Positions 1,077 to 10,036 of a stretch of DNA of 10,197 nucleotides are shown piece after piece. Under the pieces are notes generated by a model, which saw only the letters and a list, made by a program, of their open reading frames with translations, was not told the DNA's origin and searched no databases. Location of the stretch: contig JAGHAM010000037.1 of NCBI GenBank assembly GCA_021161465.1, forward strand, positions 1-10,197, given 5' to 3'. The position numbers and the translations under genes are program-made. Position 1 is the stretch's first letter; each line of letters opens with the position of its first letter. Origin of the DNA: Candidatus Iainarchaeum sp. (lineage in GTDB: Archaea; B1Sed10-29; WALL01; JAGHAM01).

Positions 1077-1105
1077 TTATTTTTTAACCCATTATGTATT
1101 TAAAA
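1077..1105 (-). promoter_or_regulatory. Likely promoter of the L7Ae-S28e-L24e operon
   Basis: Two A/T-rich archaeal TATA-like boxes lie on the minus strand upstream of L7Ae: TTTTAAATA at 1105-1097 and TTAAAAAATAAA at about 1087-1076. With the usual 25-base spacing, transcription would begin near 1076 or near 1057. Either gives a short leader containing the GAGGTGA site. The first box overlaps the last codons of the upstream membrane-protein gene, and the second starts at its stop codon. Which box is used cannot be decided from sequence. Confidence 0.5.
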
Positions 1106-1587
1106 GTAATCCCGTATTTAGGGCAATGTGAGGTTAAGAGCTCATTTGACTTTTTAAAGCAGTTCATGAAATAAAGTGCAACGAGTTGTAGAATTATTGA
1201 GAACAATATCATGTACACACTATAATCGGTCAGGAAATCGACGAAAAAACCCGGGAATATGACGGATACTATACCAAGCCCAACGGTTGCCCCACATATG
1301 GGCGCGCCGACGCCGCATACCTGCAGTGCAGACAGCCCAAGAACAACAGCGATTATGCTTAGAGTGGAGCCTTCATAAGTCCTTGCCAACATTAGCCGCT
1401 CCTTCAGGTTCCTGATGATGCAGGTTATGGAAATAGCAAATACAAGCATGAACACTGCAGCTAGAACATAGTATATACCAGTGAAAACAGTCTTAGGTAT
1501 TAAAAAATAGCTTAGTATAAGGGATATGATAAAGACAATCTTGCAGTAATTGCTTCCTATCACTTTTAACATATACGCCTTTTTCAT
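1084..1587 (-). CDS. Unrecognised small polytopic membrane protein with Cys-x6-Cys motif
   Basis: I do not recognise this protein. From ATG 1587 it has 167 residues and about four hydrophobic segments: roughly residues 16-32, 38-58, 75-112 (long, possibly a hairpin) and 122-142. Short Lys/Arg-rich loops such as RNLKER (59-64) suggest a cytosolic face. The third segment contains VCGVGAPICGA, giving Cys91 and Cys98 amid Gly and Pro. Further cysteines lie at 15, 56, 143 and 155. Paired cysteines in or beside a helix can mean metal binding, redox chemistry or simply packing, and nothing here decides between them. The start is uncertain: the frame extends upstream to TTG at 1605, which has a weak AAGGT site 5 bases before it. 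The gene ends 52 bases before L7Ae and may share its transcript or end separately. Coding status rests on the clean helix pattern and open frame. Confidence 0.7.
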   Translation of the reverse strand: MKKAYMLKVIGSNYCKIVFIISLILSYFLIPKTVFTGIYYVLAAVFMLVFAISITCIIRNLKERLMLARTYEGSTLSIIAVVLGLSALQVCGVGAPICGATVGLGIVSVIFPGFFVDFLTDYSVYMILFSIILQLVALYFMNCFKKSNELLTSHCPKYGITFKYIMG

Positions 1588-1702
1588 AACCAGCAACCCA
1601 CACAATATTTACCTTATTTGTTCTCACCCTTGGCTTAAGGACTTATGGAGTAGTGAAAGCAAATGTGAGAAAAGCCACAGCCATAGCCAATAGCTGCAAA
1701 TA

Positions 1703-1743: not shown

Positions 1744-2097
1744 ATGGCTCTTAAGATACCAATATTCAGTTATATGAGGGGAGAAACTAGCGTTTCAGAC
1801 CTGAAGGCATTGAGTGAGATAGTTATGTCTAGGGCCAAGCTTAGCGACTATAATATAGCTATGATACGTGCTAAGAACTATACTGTGGTTGGAGGAAAAC
1901 CTTTCGCTTTCTATAACAATGAGGGTGCAGCCTTGGTATTAGAAAAAATGCTCAAAGGAGAACTACCTGAGGACAAAGTCCTGACAGATGTGGTGCTTGC
2001 ATTGCAATCTGTAGATGATGATGTTTATTTTGATAAGGGCGCTTTCCTGAGCCAGATAAAGAAGCATCTTAGAGGAAAACGTAGGCAACAGCCTTAA
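1744..2097 (+). CDS. Unrecognised 117-residue soluble protein
   Basis: I cannot assign a family. The product is mixed charged/hydrophobic with no signal peptide and no membrane segment. It begins MALKIPIFSYMRGETSVSDL, has a central KNYTVVGGKPFAFYNN section that looks like a beta hairpin, then a predicted helical region (EGAALVLEKMLKGELPED), and ends in a very basic tail, KKHLRGKRRQQP. The basic tail would suit nucleic acid or membrane-surface binding, but this is only a guess from composition. Coding status is well supported by the TATA box 30-40 bases upstream, the GAGGGG ribosome binding site 5 bases before ATG, and codon use like that of its neighbours. The stop is 19 bases before the next plus-strand gene, so the two are probably co-transcribed. 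Its strand is opposite to everything else in the window. Confidence 0.8.
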   Translation: MALKIPIFSYMRGETSVSDLKALSEIVMSRAKLSDYNIAMIRAKNYTVVGGKPFAFYNNEGAALVLEKMLKGELPEDKVLTDVVLALQSVDDDVYFDKGAFLSQIKKHLRGKRRQQP

Positions 2098-2116: not shown

Positions 2117-2335
2117 ATGAGTATGGATTGGGAGGAAATTAGTCTTGCTGCGGTTGTGTCAGTATTCCTTATCGCAGGAGTATTTCTGACCATAGCAGGC
2201 ACAGCTGGTGTGACCTTTGCGGTGACGACTGGGCGTTCGGTTCAAGAGCTAAGCAACTCTGTCTTTTATGGGGTAGCGATATTAATAGGGCTTGCTTTTG
2301 TGTACTTTGGCATAAAGAAAGTTTCACCAAAGTAA
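2117..2335 (+). CDS. Unrecognised 72-residue membrane protein, two helices
   Basis: This is a small integral membrane protein of unknown function. A short acidic N-terminus (MSMDWEE) leads into a first hydrophobic helix (about residues 9-35, rich in Ala, Val and Gly), then a polar loop (TTGRSVQELSNS), then a second helix (about 48-66), and a Lys-containing end (KKVSPK). By the positive-inside rule the C-terminus is probably cytosolic, and so is the N-terminus in a hairpin. A strong ribosome binding site, AGGGTGA at 2104-2110, lies 6 bases before the ATG. It sits 19 bases downstream of the 117-residue protein, probably in one operon, and its stop lies only 13 bases from the convergent glutamyl-tRNA synthetase stop. 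No T-rich terminator is visible in that 13-base gap. Confidence 0.78.
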   Translation: MSMDWEEISLAAVVSVFLIAGVFLTIAGTAGVTFAVTTGRSVQELSNSVFYGVAILIGLAFVYFGIKKVSPK

Positions 2336-2348
2336 GTGTGCAAACTGT

Positions 2349-4010
2349 TCAGTCGTGTGCGTAGTAGGCAGCATATGGCTTCTTCGAGTCTATTCTAACA
2401 AATCCAAAACGCTCTAGCTGGATAACATCGCCAACTTTGGTTTCATCCAGATATCTCTCTGCTTTGCCTGTGGTTTTACTGAAATCTGGCATGATGACTT
2501 TCAAATCAAGGCTGTTAGATGCATCTACCCACTGTATTTTAGGGCATTTTATTAGGTCCTTACCTGCGTATTCATATGTGTGGCTATCAACTTTCCTTAT
2601 ATTGAAAGCATCTTTAAGCCTGAAGAAATCTGATAAATCTCTCTTAGGCACGAAGAATTCACTGGTGCCATTAAATTCGTATCTCTTAACTCCTCTCTTT
2701 GGTTTACTGGGGTGCCTCTTGACAGCAACCCTGGTTGGCGGTATGTTTTTCACGGTTATCCTCACTGGTTCTGGTGTGAAGAAATAACGATTCCCTTCTT
2801 CTACAAGCCTCCTGTTGAAGGCTTCAAGGTTTTTCATGGATGCACGAATGTCTTTTTCAGTCAAGCCAAAGTCAAGCCAAAACTCCCTGATAGCTTTTGG
2901 CTGGAAGCCCCTGCGCCGTAGTGCTCTTATCGTTGGCAATCGTGGATCATCCCATCCTGTGTATTTACCCTCCTTTATCTCATCACTCATCTTGCTAGTT
3001 GAAATTCTACCAAATCCCTGCATTGCAACACGACCCCAGTAATAAGTGATTGGGTACTCCCATCCAAGGTAGTCATATATGTACTTCTGCCTTCTCGTTG
3101 AGTCCGCTAAGTCTTTGCCCCTGATGATGTGGGTGACCCCCTGGAAGTGGTCTTCAAGCGCGCCTTCAAAGTCAAGCATTGGCCAGACTCTGTATTTGTT
3201 TCCTACATGTGGATGTGTTGCTTCAAGGATTCTAAATGCTACCCAGTCTCGTATGGCAGGATCCTTATGAGCCATATCTGTCTTAACTCGTAGTACTGCT
3301 TCTCCCTCCTTATACGTGCCATCGAGCATTTTCTTCCAGTCTTTCAGGTTTTCCTCTGGAGTTTTATCCCTGTGTGGGCATGGCATTTTTCTATCCTTCA
3401 GCTTTTTGAATTCCTCAGAAGAACAAAAGCAAACATAACAGTGGCCCTCTCTAATGAGCTTCTCTGCATATTCATAATACTGTGGCAAGTGTTCAGAAAC
3501 TATCACAACCTTGTCAGGCTTGCAGCCAAGCCACTCAGCATCCTCAACGTACCACTTATATGCTTCCTTAACCGGGGATTTAGTTGCTGGGTCTGTGTCA
3601 TCAAACCTCATGATGAACGTGCCATCATACTTCTTAGCGTACTCTGCGTTTATGACGATACCTCTTGTGCTTCCCATTGTAGCAGGACCATTGGGATTTG
3701 GCGCTATTCTTAGCACAACTTTGCCTTTCTCAGCCCCCTTAAGTGGCTTGAGCTTCCCCTCTAATTTCTTTTCCTTCTTCACGAATGCATCTGGCCAGAT
3801 TCTTCTTATCTTATTGACTTTCTGGTTCTCGCTCCATGAATCAACCAGCGTAATCGTTTTTTTAACTTCCGTCATAACTTCCCTGGCTCTGGGGCGAAGT
3901 TCTGGATTTTCTCCTAAGATTTTACCCAGTACAACTCCTGGGTTTGCCTTACCGTACTGTATGGCGTTTTTCAATACATGTTTTAGAACAAGTTCATCCA
4001 ATTCAGGCAT
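2349..4010 (-). CDS. gltX: Glutamyl-tRNA synthetase, archaeal type
   Basis: This class I cytosolic enzyme charges tRNA-Glu. In archaea without GlnRS it also makes Glu-tRNA-Gln for the GatDE amidotransferase. The 553 residues match the archaeal length. In order: an N-terminal helical extension (1-95); the Rossmann catalytic start RIAPNPNGPATMGSTRG (101-117); RFDDTDP (135-141), which helps bind glutamate and ATP; a Cys/His-rich insert, probably zinc-binding (Cys191, 194, 196, 211, His213); WPMLDFEGALEDH (276-288); the KMSKS-equivalent ISTSK (336-340); and a C-terminal beta-barrel anticodon domain of GlnRS type, ending in the LERFGFVRID region. The HIGH position reads TMGS, with both histidines replaced. 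The ATG start at 4010 has no ribosome binding site but lies about 25 bases from a TATA-like box, suggesting a leaderless message. The stop of the IPP isomerase gene lies 23 bases upstream. Confidence 0.96.
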   Translation of the reverse strand: MPELDELVLKHVLKNAIQYGKANPGVVLGKILGENPELRPRAREVMTEVKKTITLVDSWSENQKVNKIRRIWPDAFVKKEKKLEGKLKPLKGAEKGKVVLRIAPNPNGPATMGSTRGIVINAEYAKKYDGTFIMRFDDTDPATKSPVKEAYKWYVEDAEWLGCKPDKVVIVSEHLPQYYEYAEKLIREGHCYVCFCSSEEFKKLKDRKMPCPHRDKTPEENLKDWKKMLDGTYKEGEAVLRVKTDMAHKDPAIRDWVAFRILEATHPHVGNKYRVWPMLDFEGALEDHFQGVTHIIRGKDLADSTRRQKYIYDYLGWEYPITYYWGRVAMQGFGRISTSKMSDEIKEGKYTGWDDPRLPTIRALRRRGFQPKAIREFWLDFGLTEKDIRASMKNLEAFNRRLVEEGNRYFFTPEPVRITVKNIPPTRVAVKRHPSKPKRGVKRYEFNGTSEFFVPKRDLSDFFRLKDAFNIRKVDSHTYEYAGKDLIKCPKIQWVDASNSLDLKVIMPDFSKTTGKAERYLDETKVGDVIQLERFGFVRIDSKKPYAAYYAHD

Positions 4011-4030: not shown

Positions 4031-4039
4031 ATTTTATAT
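4031..4039 (-). promoter_or_regulatory. Possible internal promoter (TATA box) giving a leaderless gltX transcript
   Basis: ATATAAAAT (minus strand, 4039-4031) overlaps the last codons and stop of the isomerase gene. Its centre is about 25 bases before the gltX ATG (4010), the spacing expected if transcription begins at or next to the start codon. The gltX start has no Shine-Dalgarno-like sequence, in contrast to several upstream genes in the run. This points to gltX being expressed independently of, or in addition to, the mevalonate operon. Confidence 0.5.
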
Positions 4040-5065
4040 GTGTTTCCGCTGCTTGACTCCCCGCTCATTGCACCATTCAAGGAGAGGCCCGCTTACTACA
4101 ATGTCTGTTCTTTTTAGTTCTGCAATGTTTGAAGAGTTGGTCAAAACCATAACATCCTTTAGTTCTTTTATCCATTCTTCCAGGTTTTCTTTTACACGGA
4201 CCTTGCCACCTTCATAATACCATCTAAGCACAGGTAATGCCACCCCTGCAGCATCTGCGCCAAGTGCGATTGCTTTTGCAACGTCAAGACCTGAGCGGAT
4301 TCCACCAGTAGCTATGATAGGCAACCCTACCTGGCATTCAATTATGGAGGCAGCTGTCGGTATGCCCCAGTCTATAGGCGTGTGGCTTGCCCCATTCCTT
4401 AGCTTCTCAACTTTTACCCAACTGGTGCCACCGTATCCTCCTACATCTATGGCTTTGACACCGGCTGATTTCAATAGCAATGCGTTCTCCTTGCTAAGCC
4501 CGTTTCCAGTTTCCTTTGCTACAACTGGCAGCGCCTTTGCTGCTTCCTTTATATTCTTAAGACAGCCTGAAAAATCAACATCACCCTCTGGCTGGGCTAG
4601 CTCCTGTGCAGGGTTCAAATGAATACACATGGCGTCTGCTTTTATCTTTTTCATTGTATCCTCAACTTGATTTGTGGTGTAGTTATTGACAGCACCGATG
4701 TTTCCTAGTATGAGAGTGCTTGGAGCTTCATCCCGTACATAATAGGTCTTCCACAGTTCTGGAGTTTCAATCATGGCTCTCTGGCTGCCAACACCAAAAC
4801 CTATGCCTAGCTCCTCTGCAACGCTGGCCAGCTCTTTGTTAATCTTACCGGCTTCATCCACACCACCCGTCATGGCGCTTATCACGAGAGGTGCCCTCAG
4901 TTCCTTCCCGAGAAGCTTGGTTTTGGTGTCTACTTCGTTGAGGTTGACTGATGTTAGGGAATTGTGGACAAACCGTACGTGCTCCAGCCACGTGCTCCCT
5001 TCCTCAACATCCTGCTTCGCGCATATGTCAAGATGTTCCAGCTTTCTTTTCTTTACCAAACTCAT
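4034..5065 (-). CDS. fni: Type 2 isopentenyl-diphosphate isomerase (FMN-dependent)
   Basis: This enzyme interconverts IPP and DMAPP using reduced FMN and Mg2+, supplying both building blocks for archaeal lipids. It is a TIM-barrel protein of 343 residues, the normal length. Visible motifs (numbered from ATG 5065): RKLEHLDIC near the N-terminus, SAMTGG (63-68) and GVGSQRA (91-97) for FMN/substrate, GNIGA, HLNPAQE (149-155) with the Gln-Glu pair used for substrate and Mg2+ binding, KETGNG (184-189), GGYGGTSW (209-216), GIPTAASI, and the FMN-phosphate loop ATGGIRSG (252-259). A second ATG lies at 5074. I prefer 5065 because the AAGGA at 5079-5075 abuts the first ATG but sits 9 bases from the second, and family members usually begin close to the Arg-Lys motif. 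With the upstream start, the gene overlaps the kinase gene by 8 bases. Confidence 0.96.
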   Translation of the reverse strand: MSLVKKRKLEHLDICAKQDVEEGSTWLEHVRFVHNSLTSVNLNEVDTKTKLLGKELRAPLVISAMTGGVDEAGKINKELASVAEELGIGFGVGSQRAMIETPELWKTYYVRDEAPSTLILGNIGAVNNYTTNQVEDTMKKIKADAMCIHLNPAQELAQPEGDVDFSGCLKNIKEAAKALPVVAKETGNGLSKENALLLKSAGVKAIDVGGYGGTSWVKVEKLRNGASHTPIDWGIPTAASIIECQVGLPIIATGGIRSGLDVAKAIALGADAAGVALPVLRWYYEGGKVRVKENLEEWIKELKDVMVLTNSSNIAELKRTDIVVSGPLLEWCNERGVKQRKHI

Positions 5066-5066
5066 A

Positions 5067-5879
5067 TCAATCATTCCTTATTATTGTGCCTAATCCCTCT
5101 TCTCCCGACAGGGCGCGCTTAAGATAGTTAGGCTTCAGCGCGTTTATTATCTCAACTGTAATACCTTCTTTGGCAAGCTCTATCATTGAGTTTACCTTTT
5201 GGACCATACCACCAGTTACATCTATCCCTGAGGATTCAGCAAGGTAATCTTCAACTTTGCTCACGTTCCTGGGGGTTATTACAGGTACTACCTTACTGCT
5301 GGGATCTTCAGGATTCCCATCCATAACGCCATCAACCCTTCCACAGATGATGACACGTTTTACCTTATAACCCTCCATTCCACTGTTTGCTATATACCTT
5401 AGGACTTCCTCTGTGGACAGTATGCAGCAGCCTTTTTTTGTGTCTATGGCTACATCACCATAAGGCACGGGCAGCATGCCGTAATCAAGGAACGTCTTGA
5501 GTGGCTTCAGGTACATATCCTTTATGCGACCGTTTTCAGCTATTGCGCATGCAGACAGCTGAATGCTTATTGCGTTCTCTCCGGAGTTTATGAGTTCCTG
5601 GACTATACTCCTGTTCAGCCTTGATGCAGCATCCTGAACTCTTGCTATCCCCTCATAGCTATCTGAGTTTATAATCCCCTCATTTGTATGGAACCTTGCA
5701 GCAGGGACATGCGGATATGAACCGCCACCATGACCTATGATTAGTTTAAGATTGAACTTCTGCCTGGCTTCGTGAATCTCTCTTGCAAGCCTTTCTACAA
5801 CATCCTGTCTCTCTGTGAAAGGTTTGTTCTTCTCTGTTATCACAGAGCCACCAAGCTTGACTAATGTGAGCTCTTCCAA
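5067..5879 (-). CDS. ipk: Isopentenyl phosphate kinase
   Basis: This kinase phosphorylates isopentenyl phosphate to IPP with ATP, the last phosphorylation of the archaeal mevalonate pathway. Members of the family also accept dimethylallyl phosphate. It is an amino-acid-kinase fold protein of 270 residues. Motifs: VKLGGSVIT (7-15, ATP-binding Lys and Gly loop), GHGGGSYPHVPA (49-60) with the key His57 that contacts the substrate phosphate, PYGDVAID (139-146), CGRVDGVMDGNP (179-190), and the nucleotide loop DVTGGMVQK (220-228). The loop before His57 reads SYPH where I expect SFGH. The start is TTG (5879-5877). No other usable start lies before the glycine-rich loop, and GGAG lies 10 bases upstream. 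It overlaps the end of the dehydratase small subunit by 19 bases, implying coupling. Confidence 0.95.
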   Translation of the reverse strand: MEELTLVKLGGSVITEKNKPFTERQDVVERLAREIHEARQKFNLKLIIGHGGGSYPHVPAARFHTNEGIINSDSYEGIARVQDAASRLNRSIVQELINSGENAISIQLSACAIAENGRIKDMYLKPLKTFLDYGMLPVPYGDVAIDTKKGCCILSTEEVLRYIANSGMEGYKVKRVIICGRVDGVMDGNPEDPSSKVVPVITPRNVSKVEDYLAESSGIDVTGGMVQKVNSMIELAKEGITVEIINALKPNYLKRALSGEEGLGTIIRND

Positions 5880-6253
5880 GCAATCACTTCTCCTTTTATC
5901 TTAACCAAGTCGCCGTTTTTTATTTTTGATATATGCACATGGTCAATCATAGGTATGTCTGATATTATGGCACCGGTCGCAACTATTGGCTCACTTTCCT
6001 CATTCACTATTGCAACTGGGGCCTTCCTGTTTTTCTTAAGCCTGTATATTATATAAGAACCAACGGTGCTACCTTTCCCATTTGGGAACACCAAGACCTT
6101 TCCAGCTACGCTTTTGCCCTTCAATGGGTGCTTCTTTTCTGTAACCACTCCAGTTTTTGGGTCAACACCGCCATAGAAAGATATCGGCTCTTTTGAAACT
6201 AATGCCTTGCCTTCAGCCTCTCCAGATTTTATAACTCTCCCTCTTGCTCTCAT
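5861..6253 (-). CDS. Phosphomevalonate dehydratase small subunit (aconitase X swivel domain)
   Basis: This is the small partner of the two-subunit enzyme that dehydrates mevalonate 5-phosphate to trans-anhydromevalonate 5-phosphate. It corresponds to the swivelling domain of aconitases (the family once called DUF126). From ATG 6253 it has 130 residues, normal for the family. Recognisable parts: MRARGRVIKSGEAEGKALVS, then SFYGGVDPKTG, the hallmark FPNGKGSTVGSYI active-site loop, then AIVNEESEPIVATGAIISDIPMID. The start is decided by AGGTGG (6265-6260), 6 bases before the ATG, and by the ATGA overlap with the large-subunit stop. An upstream in-frame ATG (6298) would overlap the large subunit by 49 bases and is less likely. 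The order large-small-kinase-isomerase follows the pathway. Confidence 0.94.
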   Translation of the reverse strand: MRARGRVIKSGEAEGKALVSKEPISFYGGVDPKTGVVTEKKHPLKGKSVAGKVLVFPNGKGSTVGSYIIYRLKKNRKAPVAIVNEESEPIVATGAIISDIPMIDHVHISKIKNGDLVKIKGEVIAWKSSH

Positions 6254-7449
6254 CTTTTCCCACCTGTTGCTATACTCATACATTCCTCCGTGGTGCATAG
6301 CAATGTTTTGAACTTGTTACTGCCTCTTCCATAATAACAGGCTTTAGCAGAGTTGGTTGCCATCACGTGAAATCTGCCTTTTAACGGGGCAACTGCCATA
6401 CAGGTGTCTGGAACAACTTTAGCGCCAGCTTTGTTTATTGCTTTTAAGTAACCCCTCCTCTTTGCCATCTCCATTACCCTTCTTGAAGTGGTTATCCAGG
6501 TTTCAACTTCAACTCTCTTGCCCCTGAGAAGTTCCGATATAAATTTTATTTCTTCAAGTGATGCATGTGGACAACCAATGGCAACGAAGTCAACTTTCCC
6601 TGTTTCGTCCGTTATCCCAGCCCTTGCATCCTTAATCTCTTCCTCGTCGACTACAATTTTCTCCTCTGGTTTTGGGTAAATGCCTTTTAAGGCTTCTGGG
6701 GTTATGCCCTCTATATGAAACAGCGGTGGCCCGCCGTATGTGACTATGCTCGCGCTGAGCGACTTCAATTCGTCTACTGTGGCAGAGGGGATGCCAGTTA
6801 TAAGCGGTATTTTTCCAGGGAAGTTTTTCCCAATCCAGTATCCAAGTGCCCCAAAGTCAGATATGCGTTCGATGTCTGTTTTCACATTAACCAGCAATTG
6901 CGGCTTTCTGTTTTTCTTGAGATGTAATCCATAATATGGTGTCTTTCCTATTATGGCTGCAGCCAGAGCTGATGGCCCGCCCTCGCGATTGGTCCTCGCG
7001 CCCACAGCAGAGTTTATGTATGTAACCGCGCTGGATTCGCTCCATGCAAGATGTTGCCCATATTCGGGTTTAACTCCAATAAGGTAAGGTGTGCATGTGC
7101 AGGTTGCCCTTATGCCCATTTTCTTGTAAGCGTTTATAACCTCAAGTTGCTTCTCAGCGAATTCTTTGGGTACCCCTAACTTTTTCCAGTTTAACAAATC
7201 CATTCCAGCTGGATTTAGCATTGCAGGAACAGTAGCCTTTACGCCAGTTGCAGCAAGCTCCTCTAGGAACTCCAGGCCAGCATCGCCGAGGTTAGAGTAA
7301 GATACCCCAGCAACCTGGACACTCTTGACAGGGAATAACCTGCTCGCATCATAAATCTTTCCAAGCGCGGCTAGTATCTCCATGGCTTTTTGCTTTCCGG
7401 GTCCTTCCTCCCCATCGAGGATTCTTTGCTCTTCACGTGTTAGGAGCAT
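6250..7449 (-). CDS. Phosphomevalonate dehydratase large subunit (aconitase X catalytic)
   Basis: This is the iron-sulfur catalytic subunit (family once called DUF521, aconitase X) that removes water from mevalonate 5-phosphate in the modified archaeal mevalonate pathway. Its 399 residues fit the family. In order: N-terminal VQVAGVSYSNLGDAG; TCTCTPY (116-122) with Cys119 a likely cluster ligand; ESSAVTYINSAVGARTNREG (138-157), the strongest signature, followed by GPSALAAAIIG; GCPH (292-295) with Cys293; and PDTC (347-350) with Cys350. Those three cysteines are where the cluster ligands are expected, by analogy with family members. Others (117, 371, 385, 390) are less certain. A sugar-acid or proline-related aconitase X role is possible in general, but the neighbours make the mevalonate role firm. 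The start has a modest AGGA site. The 40-base gap upstream contains TTTTATTAA at about 7480-7471, a possible internal promoter. Confidence 0.94.
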   Translation of the reverse strand: MLLTREEQRILDGEEGPGKQKAMEILAALGKIYDASRLFPVKSVQVAGVSYSNLGDAGLEFLEELAATGVKATVPAMLNPAGMDLLNWKKLGVPKEFAEKQLEVINAYKKMGIRATCTCTPYLIGVKPEYGQHLAWSESSAVTYINSAVGARTNREGGPSALAAAIIGKTPYYGLHLKKNRKPQLLVNVKTDIERISDFGALGYWIGKNFPGKIPLITGIPSATVDELKSLSASIVTYGGPPLFHIEGITPEALKGIYPKPEEKIVVDEEEIKDARAGITDETGKVDFVAIGCPHASLEEIKFISELLRGKRVEVETWITTSRRVMEMAKRRGYLKAINKAGAKVVPDTCMAVAPLKGRFHVMATNSAKACYYGRGSNKFKTLLCTTEECMSIATGGKR

Positions 7450-7489
7450 AATTATTCTTCCTGCAGCACTTAATAAAAGCTTTATTTCG

Positions 7490-8128
7490 CTAATCTGCGA
7501 GTTTTCCTATAATCTCACTTACCTCTCTAAAATTCGATGCTATAAAGTCTGCGTTAGCAAGGTCGGACTTCTCAAGAGTGGTGGTTATACCAATAGATAT
7601 CATCCCTGCTTTGTTTGCAGCTTCTATTCCTCTGGGTGCATTGTCAACTACAGCACACTCTTCTGGCTTTACCCCCATTTTCTCAGCGGTTTTTAAAAAT
7701 AGTTCCGGGTTTGGTTTTGATTCATGAACTTCATCACTTGTTGTCACAGCATCGAATAATTTCATGTTCTCACCTAAAATGTCTGCAATATTCTCGAGGT
7801 ATCCTCCACTTGCCAGCCCGACAAGAAAGCCTCTTGCCTTCAACCCTTTTATTAGCTTTATCGGCTCTGGCCATGGCTTTATTTTGGAGCGAGTTTCCCT
7901 AAACACCTTGAGCTTCTCTTTGTGGATTTCCTCGACCAGAGGGTCATTAATGTCTTTGCCGACAAGTTCGGATAATATCTTCTTGATGTTTGCACCTTCT
8001 AGCAGGAACAGGTCCCGGTCTTTGAATTCTATCCCCCTCTTAGCAAGTATCTTCCTAATCTGATTGACACTGATAAAGATGGTTCCTGCCAGAACGCCAT
8101 CGAAATCGAATATAACTGCCTTTAACAT
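7490..8128 (-). CDS. HAD-superfamily phosphatase-like hydrolase (subfamily IA), substrate unknown
   Basis: This is a 212-residue haloacid dehalogenase-fold enzyme of the phosphoglycolate phosphatase/beta-phosphoglucomutase type. All four motifs are visible: DFDGVL with nucleophile Asp8 and acid/base Asp10; Ser107 in LASGGY; Lys138 in ESKPNPELF; and Asp162 in VVDNAPRGIEAANKAGM. Motif IV has Asp-Asn-Ala where the commonest form is Glu/Asp-Asp-Ser. Related (E/D)NA variants occur in this subfamily. The helical cap lies between about residues 15 and 85. AAGGAGG (8142-8136), 7 bases before the ATG, is the strongest ribosome binding site in the operon. The gene lies 22 bases after the UbiD-type decarboxylase and 40 before the dehydratase, so it is embedded in the mevalonate operon. 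No HAD step is known in that pathway. A role on a C5 monophosphate is an inference from position only. Confidence 0.9.
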   Translation of the reverse strand: MLKAVIFDFDGVLAGTIFISVNQIRKILAKRGIEFKDRDLFLLEGANIKKILSELVGKDINDPLVEEIHKEKLKVFRETRSKIKPWPEPIKLIKGLKARGFLVGLASGGYLENIADILGENMKLFDAVTTSDEVHESKPNPELFLKTAEKMGVKPEECAVVDNAPRGIEAANKAGMISIGITTTLEKSDLANADFIASNFREVSEIIGKLAD

Positions 8129-8150
8129 ATGATTGCCTCCTTAGCCCAGT

Positions 8151-9470
8151 TTACAGTCCGTAGTCATTTAGTGACAGTTTCTTGTATCTTACCCTCTTGA
8201 ATTCTTTCTTATCCTTGCCCCAGGGTATTGTTGCATCAAACCCTGCTTTGCTGGTTATGGCTTTCTTACCCTCTGGCTTCTCCGCGCTTGGGTCAAGGGA
8301 ACTCGATGGTTGATTTTCCATCAACAAAATGTCTTTATCAGCCTGGAACCTCGTGGCTATTGCCCACTCAACCTGCGATGGGTCATGTATGTCAACATCC
8401 TCATCAACCACCACACAGTGCTTTAGGGACTTATGGCCTTTGAATGCTGCCTGAATAGCCTTTTTCCCGTCGTCAGGGGCGCGCTTCTTTATCTGGATAG
8501 CAGCATGAAGCCAGGAGCAGCCACCTGGTGTTATCAAAACATCCCTGCAGTCACAAACTTTGTTGACCTCGTTGTATACCGTTGGCTCACGTGGCATCCC
8601 CATTAAGAGCTTGTGCTCTGGCCCCCCTGGGAGGAGGGCATGATACAGGGCATCTTTCCTGTGAGTTATGCAGTCAATTTCCACAACTGGCTGTTGCCTT
8701 TCAAAGTCCATAGTATTTGTAAGGTCTACAAATGGACCTTCTATTCCTTTGTTGCCGGTTATTCTTCCCTCAAGCACTATTTCTGAGCTGGCTGGAACTT
8801 CAAGGTCTTTGGTAATGCACTTAACCAGAGGAGTCTTAGCAAGCGCGTTAGCTATGCTGAACTCATCCACCCCTTTTGGTGGTGAGGTCGCAGCGGCAAG
8901 CATTGCCTGTATTGGCGCGCCTATGCAGAAAGCAATCTCAAGTTCTTTGCCCTTTGATAGAGCAGCTCTTAAGGCTGTATCTGTTCCTCTTCCCTCAACA
9001 ATCCTAACAGTGAAAGTATTTTCCCCGGTCTTCATGAGCCTGTGGAAACAGACATTCCTGCCGTATTTTGGGTCCTTGATGACAGCTATGGCAGACGTTA
9101 TGTATGGTCCACCATCTGTTTCAAAATGAGTTAGGATGGGTAGTGAGTTCAGGTTTGCTTTCCTTTCTACAACTTCCTGGCAGGGTGCATTTTCAACTAG
9201 CTCTGCTTTGGCTGGGTGCTCGATTGCGTTTGCCATTGATTTTATCAGCTGGTTTTCATCCACACCTAGGGCTTTTGCAAAATATCGTCTGGAGGAGCAA
9301 ATACCAGAGACAACTTTATACTCGCTGCCTTTCACGTTCTCGTAGAGGATGGCTTTCTCTCCAACCTGGCTCTGGACCGCTGCTAATTCCAAATAAGGGT
9401 CAATGGGTTTTTCAACCCGTGCCAACTCCCCATTTGCTTCGAGCCAGCTGACAAGTTCCCTGAAGTTCAC
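8151..9470 (-). CDS. UbiD-family decarboxylase, probable anhydromevalonate phosphate decarboxylase
   Basis: By context this enzyme decarboxylates trans-anhydromevalonate 5-phosphate to isopentenyl phosphate using prenylated FMN. Its 439 residues match the archaeal branch and are shorter than bacterial UbiD (about 490). Seen in order: RELVSWLEANGELARVEKPI at the N-terminus, ILTHFETDGGPYIT (112-125), RNVCFHRLM (138-146) and VRIVEGRGTD (155-164) in the cofactor region, VPASSEIVLEG (225-235), the active-site EGPFVD (244-249), PGGPEHKLLMG (281-291), SSSLDPSA (389-396) and SKAGFDAT (407-414). In the better-known UbiD enzymes the fourth motif from the end reads EGPFGE, so Asp249 stands where a Glu is usual. 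The start is GTG (9470-9468), set by a perfect GGTGAT site 5 bases upstream. It overlaps the UbiX stop as GTGA. The adjacent UbiX and downstream dehydratase and kinase support this role over an aromatic-acid decarboxylase. Confidence 0.94.
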   Translation of the reverse strand: MNFRELVSWLEANGELARVEKPIDPYLELAAVQSQVGEKAILYENVKGSEYKVVSGICSSRRYFAKALGVDENQLIKSMANAIEHPAKAELVENAPCQEVVERKANLNSLPILTHFETDGGPYITSAIAVIKDPKYGRNVCFHRLMKTGENTFTVRIVEGRGTDTALRAALSKGKELEIAFCIGAPIQAMLAAATSPPKGVDEFSIANALAKTPLVKCITKDLEVPASSEIVLEGRITGNKGIEGPFVDLTNTMDFERQQPVVEIDCITHRKDALYHALLPGGPEHKLLMGMPREPTVYNEVNKVCDCRDVLITPGGCSWLHAAIQIKKRAPDDGKKAIQAAFKGHKSLKHCVVVDEDVDIHDPSQVEWAIATRFQADKDILLMENQPSSSLDPSAEKPEGKKAITSKAGFDATIPWGKDKKEFKRVRYKKLSLNDYGL

Positions 9471-10036
9471 TCTCCATCACCCCATTCTTTATAAAGTTCA
9501 TGCTTAATCCCAATCAATTCGAATACCCTGCCAACTATATAATTTTCTAGGTCTCTCATACTCCTTGGTTTTATGTAATAGTTCACAACAGGAGGTAGAA
9601 TTGAGCATCCTGCTCTCTTTGCCTTAACCATATTTTCAAGTTGTGGAAGCGTTAGGGGTGTTTCCCTTGGCACCAGTATAACTGGCCGTTCCTGCTTTAG
9701 GCTAACCCCAGCAGCTCTTGCTATTGCATTGTCTTCAATTCCATTAGCAACTTTAGCCAAGGTGTTCATGGAGCAGGGCATAATAACCATAGCGTCAAGT
9801 GCAAAGCTGCCTGAACATATCCTGGATGAAATATCTTCAGGTTCGTACCAAAACTCACTGAGTGCTTTAAGGTCGTTTACCCCAAGTTCGCTTTCTTTAT
9901 CCATGACTACCCGTGCATTCTTACTCATCACTAGGTGCCTTTCTACTTTCTTGTTCCCAAGTTCATCCAGCATCCTGACTACAAGTGGAAATCCACTACC
10001 TCCAGTTACGGCAACTAATATTTTCATGGCTGGCAT
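9467..10036 (-). CDS. ubiX: Flavin prenyltransferase (UbiX family)
   Basis: This enzyme joins a dimethylallyl group from dimethylallyl phosphate to FMN, forming the prenylated FMN cofactor needed by UbiD-type decarboxylases. It has 189 residues, the usual size. Motifs: KILVAVTGGSGFPL (5-18, flavin-binding start), MVIMPCSMNTLAKVANGIED (83-102), LKQERPVILVPRETPL (113-128) with Lys114 and Arg124 in the phosphate-binding area, and the PPVVNYYIKPRSM segment (148-160) with the C-terminal Tyr/Arg used for the prenyl phosphate. The ATG at 10036 has GGAGG (10048-10044) 7 bases upstream. An ATG at 10027 (MKILV) is an alternative with poorer spacing. It is the first gene of the operon within the window and overlaps the decarboxylase start by 4 bases, which links cofactor synthesis to the enzyme that needs it. 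Confidence 0.96.
   Translation of the reverse strand: MPAMKILVAVTGGSGFPLVVRMLDELGNKKVERHLVMSKNARVVMDKESELGVNDLKALSEFWYEPEDISSRICSGSFALDAMVIMPCSMNTLAKVANGIEDNAIARAAGVSLKQERPVILVPRETPLTLPQLENMVKAKRAGCSILPPVVNYYIKPRSMRDLENYIVGRVFELIGIKHELYKEWGDGE

Follow-up and report, generated by a model that had tools for sequence, protein, structure and literature searches.

A seven-gene operon on the minus strand of contig JAGHAM010000037.1 from Candidatus Iainarchaeum sp. (assembly GCA_021161465.1) very probably encodes the modified (trans-anhydromevalonate) lower mevalonate pathway together with its own cofactor supply, in which the cofactor would depend on the product of the pathway. The analysed stretch, hereafter the window, is 10,197 nucleotides (nt) long and is contig 9 of a 0.98-Mb assembly that is 93% complete and that belongs to a small archaeal phylum, represented in the analysis by 19 genomes. 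The pathway and its self-dependency are known biochemistry; the new element is a HAD phosphatase encoded in the operon, a candidate enzyme for closure of the cofactor loop. No published description of a HAD phosphatase in this cluster was found in a partial literature search.

The genes run from 10036 to 4034 in the order UbiX-UbiD-HAD-AcnX large-AcnX small-IPK-IDI-2. In profile searches, all products other than the HAD protein scored above curated family cut-offs. UbiX (9467..10036), the flavin prenyltransferase that makes prenyl-FMN, exceeded the cut-offs of the NCBIfam UbiX subfamily models, and the UbiD-family protein (8151..9470), a predicted trans-anhydromevalonate 5-phosphate decarboxylase (AMPD), matched TIGR00148 with 392 bits as well as three UbiD Pfam domains. 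The large subunit of the phosphomevalonate dehydratase (PMDh), AcnX large (6250..7449), matched Pfam AcnX with 516 bits, and the small (swivel) subunit (5861..6298 as listed) matched AcnX_swivel. Isopentenyl phosphate kinase (IPK; 5067..5879) scored 207 bits against a cut-off of 120 for NCBIfam IPPK_Arch, and type 2 isopentenyl-diphosphate isomerase (IDI-2; 4034..5074) scored 389 bits against 281 for TIGR02151. The remaining gene (7490..8128) encodes a HAD-IA phosphatase of 212 amino acids (aa) that was recognized by Pfam HAD_2.

The original prediction described six genes on one strand in near-pathway order with overlapping or short junctions. Indeed, all six were found on the minus strand over the expected span, but the HAD gene had been missed as the seventh. 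Overlapping or short junctions were confirmed at UbiX/UbiD, AcnX large/small, AcnX small/IPK, and IPK/IDI-2, whereas the interval between UbiD and AcnX large holds the whole HAD gene, which lies 22 nt past UbiD and 40 nt ahead of AcnX large and carries its own strong Shine-Dalgarno sequence, ctaaggaggcaatcatATG. The true start of AcnX small is probably Met16 (6253) rather than 6298; the profile match begins at residue 16, and a start at Met16 would give an ATGA overlap with AcnX large. The same order, UbiX-UbiD-(HAD)-AcnXL-AcnXS-IPK-IDI2, was observed in relatives whose proteins are only ~40-65% identical, and the arrangement is therefore far beyond chance.

The earlier assignment of these genes to the modified mevalonate pathway was borne out by family profiles, catalytic residues, and the conserved gene order. 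AcnX large aligned with the putative PMDh of T. kodakarensis (7cnr) at an E value of 4e-110. It retains, within the motifs CTPY, GCPHA, and PDTC, the three cysteines equivalent to C122, C297, and C356 of the A. pernix enzyme, which hold the iron-sulfur cluster in that PMDh (PMC10040528). IPK matched solved IPKs at 3e-34 and has the signature His57 in GGGSYPH. The Glu-Arg-Glu/Asp network of UbiD is kept as E244-R144-D249; in Fdc1, only Glu-to-Asp changes within the Glu-Arg-Glu network leave activity (PMC5818171). The closest solved UbiD relative, 6h6v, has Glu at the position of D249, whereas Asp at this position and the motif EGPFxD were common to all 37 of the 37 archaeal UbiDs linked to AcnX clusters, which come from three phyla. 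Hence, Asp at the Fdc1 E282 position (D249 in the window) could mark the AMPD group as a sequence marker, which is distinct from functional proof. The window UbiD was placed in this group by genomic linkage and EGPFxD rather than by a tree with the characterized A. pernix enzyme.

The rest of the genome was consistent with this assignment. The assembly contains a single UbiD and a single UbiX, and UbiX must therefore serve the decarboxylase of the operon. A second flavoprotein of the genome was considered as another UbiX and rejected, as it was CoaBC-like. One HMG-CoA reductase (HMGR) and one GHMP kinase were found, both on contigs other than that of the operon. Because this sole GHMP-kinase match is mevalonate kinase, there was no sign of a GHMP-type phosphomevalonate kinase or diphosphomevalonate decarboxylase in the 93%-complete assembly. 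Judging from this gene content (one UbiD, UbiX, mevalonate kinase, and HMGR), the host seems to make isoprenoids by the modified pathway alone. Accordingly, the lower pathway that had been called complete is so from mevalonate 5-phosphate onward, with mevalonate kinase and HMGR encoded elsewhere.

The reactions of AcnX, AMPD, UbiX, IPK, and IDI-2 are established for their families and were assigned here by homology. The two AcnX subunits, forming a heterodimeric (type II) enzyme, would dehydrate mevalonate 5-phosphate, and the UbiD-type enzyme, with prenyl-FMN, would decarboxylate trans-anhydromevalonate 5-phosphate to isopentenyl phosphate (IP). IPK would then convert IP to isopentenyl diphosphate (IPP), from which IDI-2 would form dimethylallyl diphosphate (DMAPP). 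UbiX would build prenyl-FMN from FMNH2 and dimethylallyl phosphate (DMAP), the latter presumably derived from the DMAPP made by the operon, and the HAD protein may trim DMAPP to DMAP for UbiX. Since the prenyl donor of UbiX can only come from the end product of the pathway, the route would be autocatalytic in its cofactor; it follows from known biochemistry that only catalytic amounts of prenyl-FMN are required. Formation of DMAP by AMPD as a side product was rejected on chemical grounds, because the decarboxylation yields IP. The requirement of the pathway for its own product had been singled out as the notable point. The single UbiX and UbiD and the origin of the donor agree with such a requirement, but the mevalonate scheme of M. 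acetivorans already lists prenyl-FMN synthase, DMAP, and FMNH2 (PMC11816158); the self-dependence of the cofactor is thus implicit in the literature and general to the modified pathway rather than specific to the operon.

Beyond the window itself, gene neighbourhoods were compared at 12 loci of its phylum, 39 loci from the phylum of genome G020, which was taken as Thermoproteota from the gene content of G020, and 21 loci from the phylum to which a Jordarchaeum (Asgard) genome belongs; no methanogens or other Euryarchaeota were recognized in the sample. In the window's phylum, AcnX was found in 13 of the 19 genomes and UbiD in 12. UbiD adjoins AcnX in three archaeal phyla. The original prediction had proposed comparing archaeal genomes for UbiX adjacent to the decarboxylase, and linkage of UbiX to the cluster was found to be recurrent and strongest in the window's phylum: UbiX lies within the cluster at 8 of 13 AcnX loci, and three more loci are cut by contig ends. 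Among the Asgard loci it is directly upstream of UbiD in 3 of 21, and in the sampled Thermoproteota loci direct linkage is rare, with UbiX 3' of AcnX small in 2 of 39.

HAD genes were also recurrent in the homologous clusters: of 14 genomes of the phylum, 6 have them there, and these span three families of the order. Their slots differ. The HAD gene lies between UbiD and AcnX large in the window, in G014, and in G009, where two copies stand in tandem. In G012 it is between UbiX and AcnX large, with UbiD elsewhere, and in G018 it is 1.3 kb upstream of AcnX large. In G017 it lies 33 nt ahead of IPK, with IDI-2 on the same contig; neither AcnX nor UbiD was found in the G017 assembly, which is 89% complete. 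By a rough estimate, ~0.5 HADs would be expected in such loci outside the window genome, against five genomes observed. The corresponding P is ~3e-5 if the genomes are assumed to be independent, which they are not, and ~0.01 if only three independent lineages are counted.

We next describe the HAD protein itself. The HAD motif residues D8, D10, S107, K138, and D162 are intact, and E44 and N163 are also present. The nearest solved relative by sequence was the HAD pyrophosphatase BT2127 (E 1e-18), in which crystallographers mutated E47; the equivalents of E47 and of the ENAP Asn are E44 and N163 (in DNAP) of the window protein. These equivalents are kept in the HAD copies of G000 (the window genome), G009, and G014 and not in the other cluster HADs. 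A structural model of the window HAD (pLDDT 94.5) gave a Z score of 26.6 for BT2127, tied with beta-phosphoglucomutase and AlnB. Structure search was therefore rejected as a functional guide, because the ties allow no choice between a pyrophosphatase, a phosphoglucomutase, and another kind of C1-cap phosphatase. Phylogenetic analysis placed all seven cluster HADs in one supported group (96/98) together with BT2127 and three paralogues from outside the clusters; within this group the cluster HADs formed two sub-clades and one divergent member.

The donor of UbiX bears directly on whether a DMAP-forming step is needed. The closest solved chain to the window UbiX was the flavin prenyltransferase UbiX 6m8v (E 2e-43). 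Residues S15, E49, R122, K129, R139, E140, Y169, and R185 of PaUbiX correspond to S14, E48, R107, K114, R124, E125, Y154, and R170, and the site for FMN and prenyl phosphate is thus conserved. Tyr166 aligns with F181 of PaUbiX. This position is Phe in the DMAP-specific PaUbiX, Gln in DMAPP-specific enzymes, and His in a dual one (PMC6541611); most of the other cluster-linked archaeal UbiX proteins carry Phe or Tyr there, three carry His, and none has Gln. Tyr166 weakly favours DMAP as the donor here. In published work, mutation of the position failed to switch donor preference, and it is not the sole determinant (PMC6541611). The earlier statement that UbiX needs DMAP does not hold in general, as the UbiX enzymes of A. 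niger and E. coli K-12 are DMAPP-specific and that of O157 uses both donors (PMC6541611), but for the window enzyme it is in weak agreement with this residue.

Our proposal that the HAD protein is a dedicated DMAPP-to-DMAP phosphohydrolase feeding UbiX, and hence the specific enzyme closing the autocatalytic loop, is put forward tentatively, as a possibility that we consider on balance doubtful. In its favour are the recurrence in the clusters, including the tandem pair in G009 and the IPK-adjacent copy in G017, and the precedents of the HAD protein AstI, which converts drimanyl diphosphate to its monophosphate, and of E. coli HAD4 and HAD10, which accept IPP (PMC5024094). Several points weigh against it. 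The gene is missing from at least seven clusters of the phylum, and no linked HAD was found around AcnX at the 39 loci of Thermoproteota or the 21 of Asgard archaea except one stray match 4.9 kb off on the other strand; HAD is thus not essential to the pathway everywhere. The division of the cluster HADs into at least two sub-clades plus a divergent protein means that their substrates may differ, and HAD substrates are not readable from fold or sequence. If UbiX uses DMAPP directly, no DMAP step is needed.

The HAD step, a reversed IPK, and direct use of DMAPP by UbiX are not mutually exclusive. The chief alternative is that IPK running in reverse (DMAPP + ADP -> DMAP + ATP) supplies DMAP and that HAD is unrelated, which we regard as quite possible, if short of an even chance. 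No additional gene would be required, DMAP is accepted as a substrate by IPKs (PMC8701039), and IPK is present in nearly all intact clusters of the phylum, HAD-less ones included. However, IPK reversal leaves the recurrence of HAD unexplained, including the IPK-adjacent copy in G017, where AcnX and UbiD were not found, and no documentation of the reverse reaction of an archaeal IPK was found in the literature examined. The original prediction had named the kinase as an enzyme that could link DMAPP back to DMAP. This stands as one option, but in E. coli a route to DMAP by Nudix hydrolases acting on DMAPP has been named (PMC8701039), two Nudix genes are present in the host genome, the operon itself having no Nudix hydrolase gene, and the HAD protein of the operon is a comparably good candidate. 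UbiX might alternatively take DMAPP directly, in which case the loop would close at once without a DMAP-forming step. The donor specificities of the A. niger, K-12, and O157 enzymes provide precedent, whereas Tyr166 in the window enzyme and the absence of Gln among the cluster-linked archaeal UbiX proteins argue against direct use, which we consider rather doubtful.

Two further explanations concern the HAD protein alone. That it is an inorganic pyrophosphatase, whose removal of pyrophosphate would pull prenyl-chain elongation, is suggested by its nearest solved relative and by the match of E44 and N163 to E47 and the ENAP Asn in the G000, G009, and G014 copies. Nevertheless, the window protein scored 101 bits against the curated cut-off of 245 for NF053653 (HAD inorganic pyrophosphatase) and thus fell far below it. 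Furthermore, a canonical family I inorganic pyrophosphatase gene is present in the host genome (G000) as well as in G009 and G014, precisely the three whose cluster HADs bear the E47/Asn equivalents, so that a general pyrophosphatase role for HAD is unlikely to be needed. The idea that HAD is the missing inorganic pyrophosphatase of the cell was thereby weakened, and we judge the pyrophosphatase explanation to be unlikely. Equally improbable in our view is a housekeeping or metabolite-repair phosphatase (acting on IP overflow, FMN, or sugar phosphates) retained by descent. HAD-IA enzymes are numerous and promiscuous, and the patchy presence in the clusters would suit such a role, but the recurrence of HADs of different sub-clades at different slots does not look like simple passive retention.

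The operon can be compared with several known systems. The modified mevalonate pathway of Aeropyrum pernix and Methanosarcina, described in Hayakawa 2018 (cited by PMC8421414, PMC8791446, and PMC11816158) and, for PMDh, in PMC10040528, likewise comprises a heterodimeric AcnX dehydratase, a UbiD-type AMPD, prenyl-FMN synthase, IPK, and an isomerase; in the present small-genome archaeon, by contrast, all genes including UbiX are in one operon and HAD is inserted. In bacterial UbiX-UbiD pairs for aromatic or acrylic acid decarboxylation, a neighbouring UbiX also supplies prenyl-FMN and the network corresponding to E244-R144-D249 is shared, but Fdc1 and 6h6v have Glu where Asp is found here, the predicted substrate here is trans-anhydromevalonate 5-phosphate, and the prenyl group of the cofactor would stem from the pathway itself. 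The window HAD shares with BT2127 (PDB 3quq and relatives) the HAD-IA fold, the helical cap, and the E47/Asn equivalents, and differs in its 25-26% identity, its score below the family cut-off, and the family I pyrophosphatase of its host. AstI of astellolide biosynthesis is also a HAD protein of a terpenoid cluster that removes one phosphate from a prenyl-type diphosphate (PMC5024094), but it is fungal and acts on a cyclized C15 substrate in secondary metabolism; no orthology is claimed. The E. coli Nudix DMAPP phosphohydrolases that feed UbiX (PMC8701039) belong to a different protein family and catalyse the same DMAPP-to-DMAP reaction as that proposed for HAD.

Other features were noted in the clusters and in the window. 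A CYTH/CyaB-like protein of 172-175 aa is encoded between IPK and IDI-2 in G012 (L088:10759-11277, plus strand) and G011 (L096:434-961, minus strand); the two are 40% identical to each other and may be a further phosphohydrolase of the cluster. At the same place in G009 there is a 668-aa open reading frame (ORF; L094:10432-12438, plus strand) with a C-terminal IPK-like amino-acid-kinase domain. A Nudix gene beside IPK in G004 was considered as a DMAPP hydrolase and rejected; it encodes a type 1 (Nudix-fold) IPP isomerase (L092:5555-6076, minus strand), located 18 nt past IPK, where relatives carry type 2. IDI2, HAD-IPK, and a DUF92 gene share one small contig in G017 (L253:1-4055). In the window, a profile match identified glutamyl-tRNA synthetase (GltX; 2349..4010, minus strand), which starts 23 nt downstream of IDI-2 and is outside the pathway; most of the phylum's intact clusters likewise have GltX 3' of IDI-2, so that an isoprenoid gene and a translation gene are neighbours by conservation. 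The ORFs at 1744-2097 (plus), 2117-2335 (plus), and 1084-1605 (minus) had no match in the family libraries searched, and the latter two appear to be membrane-spanning.

In most archaea, membrane lipids are produced through a pathway in which decarboxylation depends on a prenylated flavin, and this flavin is itself assembled from the pathway product. The operon provides a concrete candidate for the enzyme that supplies the monophosphate donor of prenyl-FMN in archaea, and it removes the presumption that the link has to be the kinase. If the proposed role of the HAD protein is true, it would act opposite to IPK and could also set the balance between DMAP and DMAPP and between IP and IPP.

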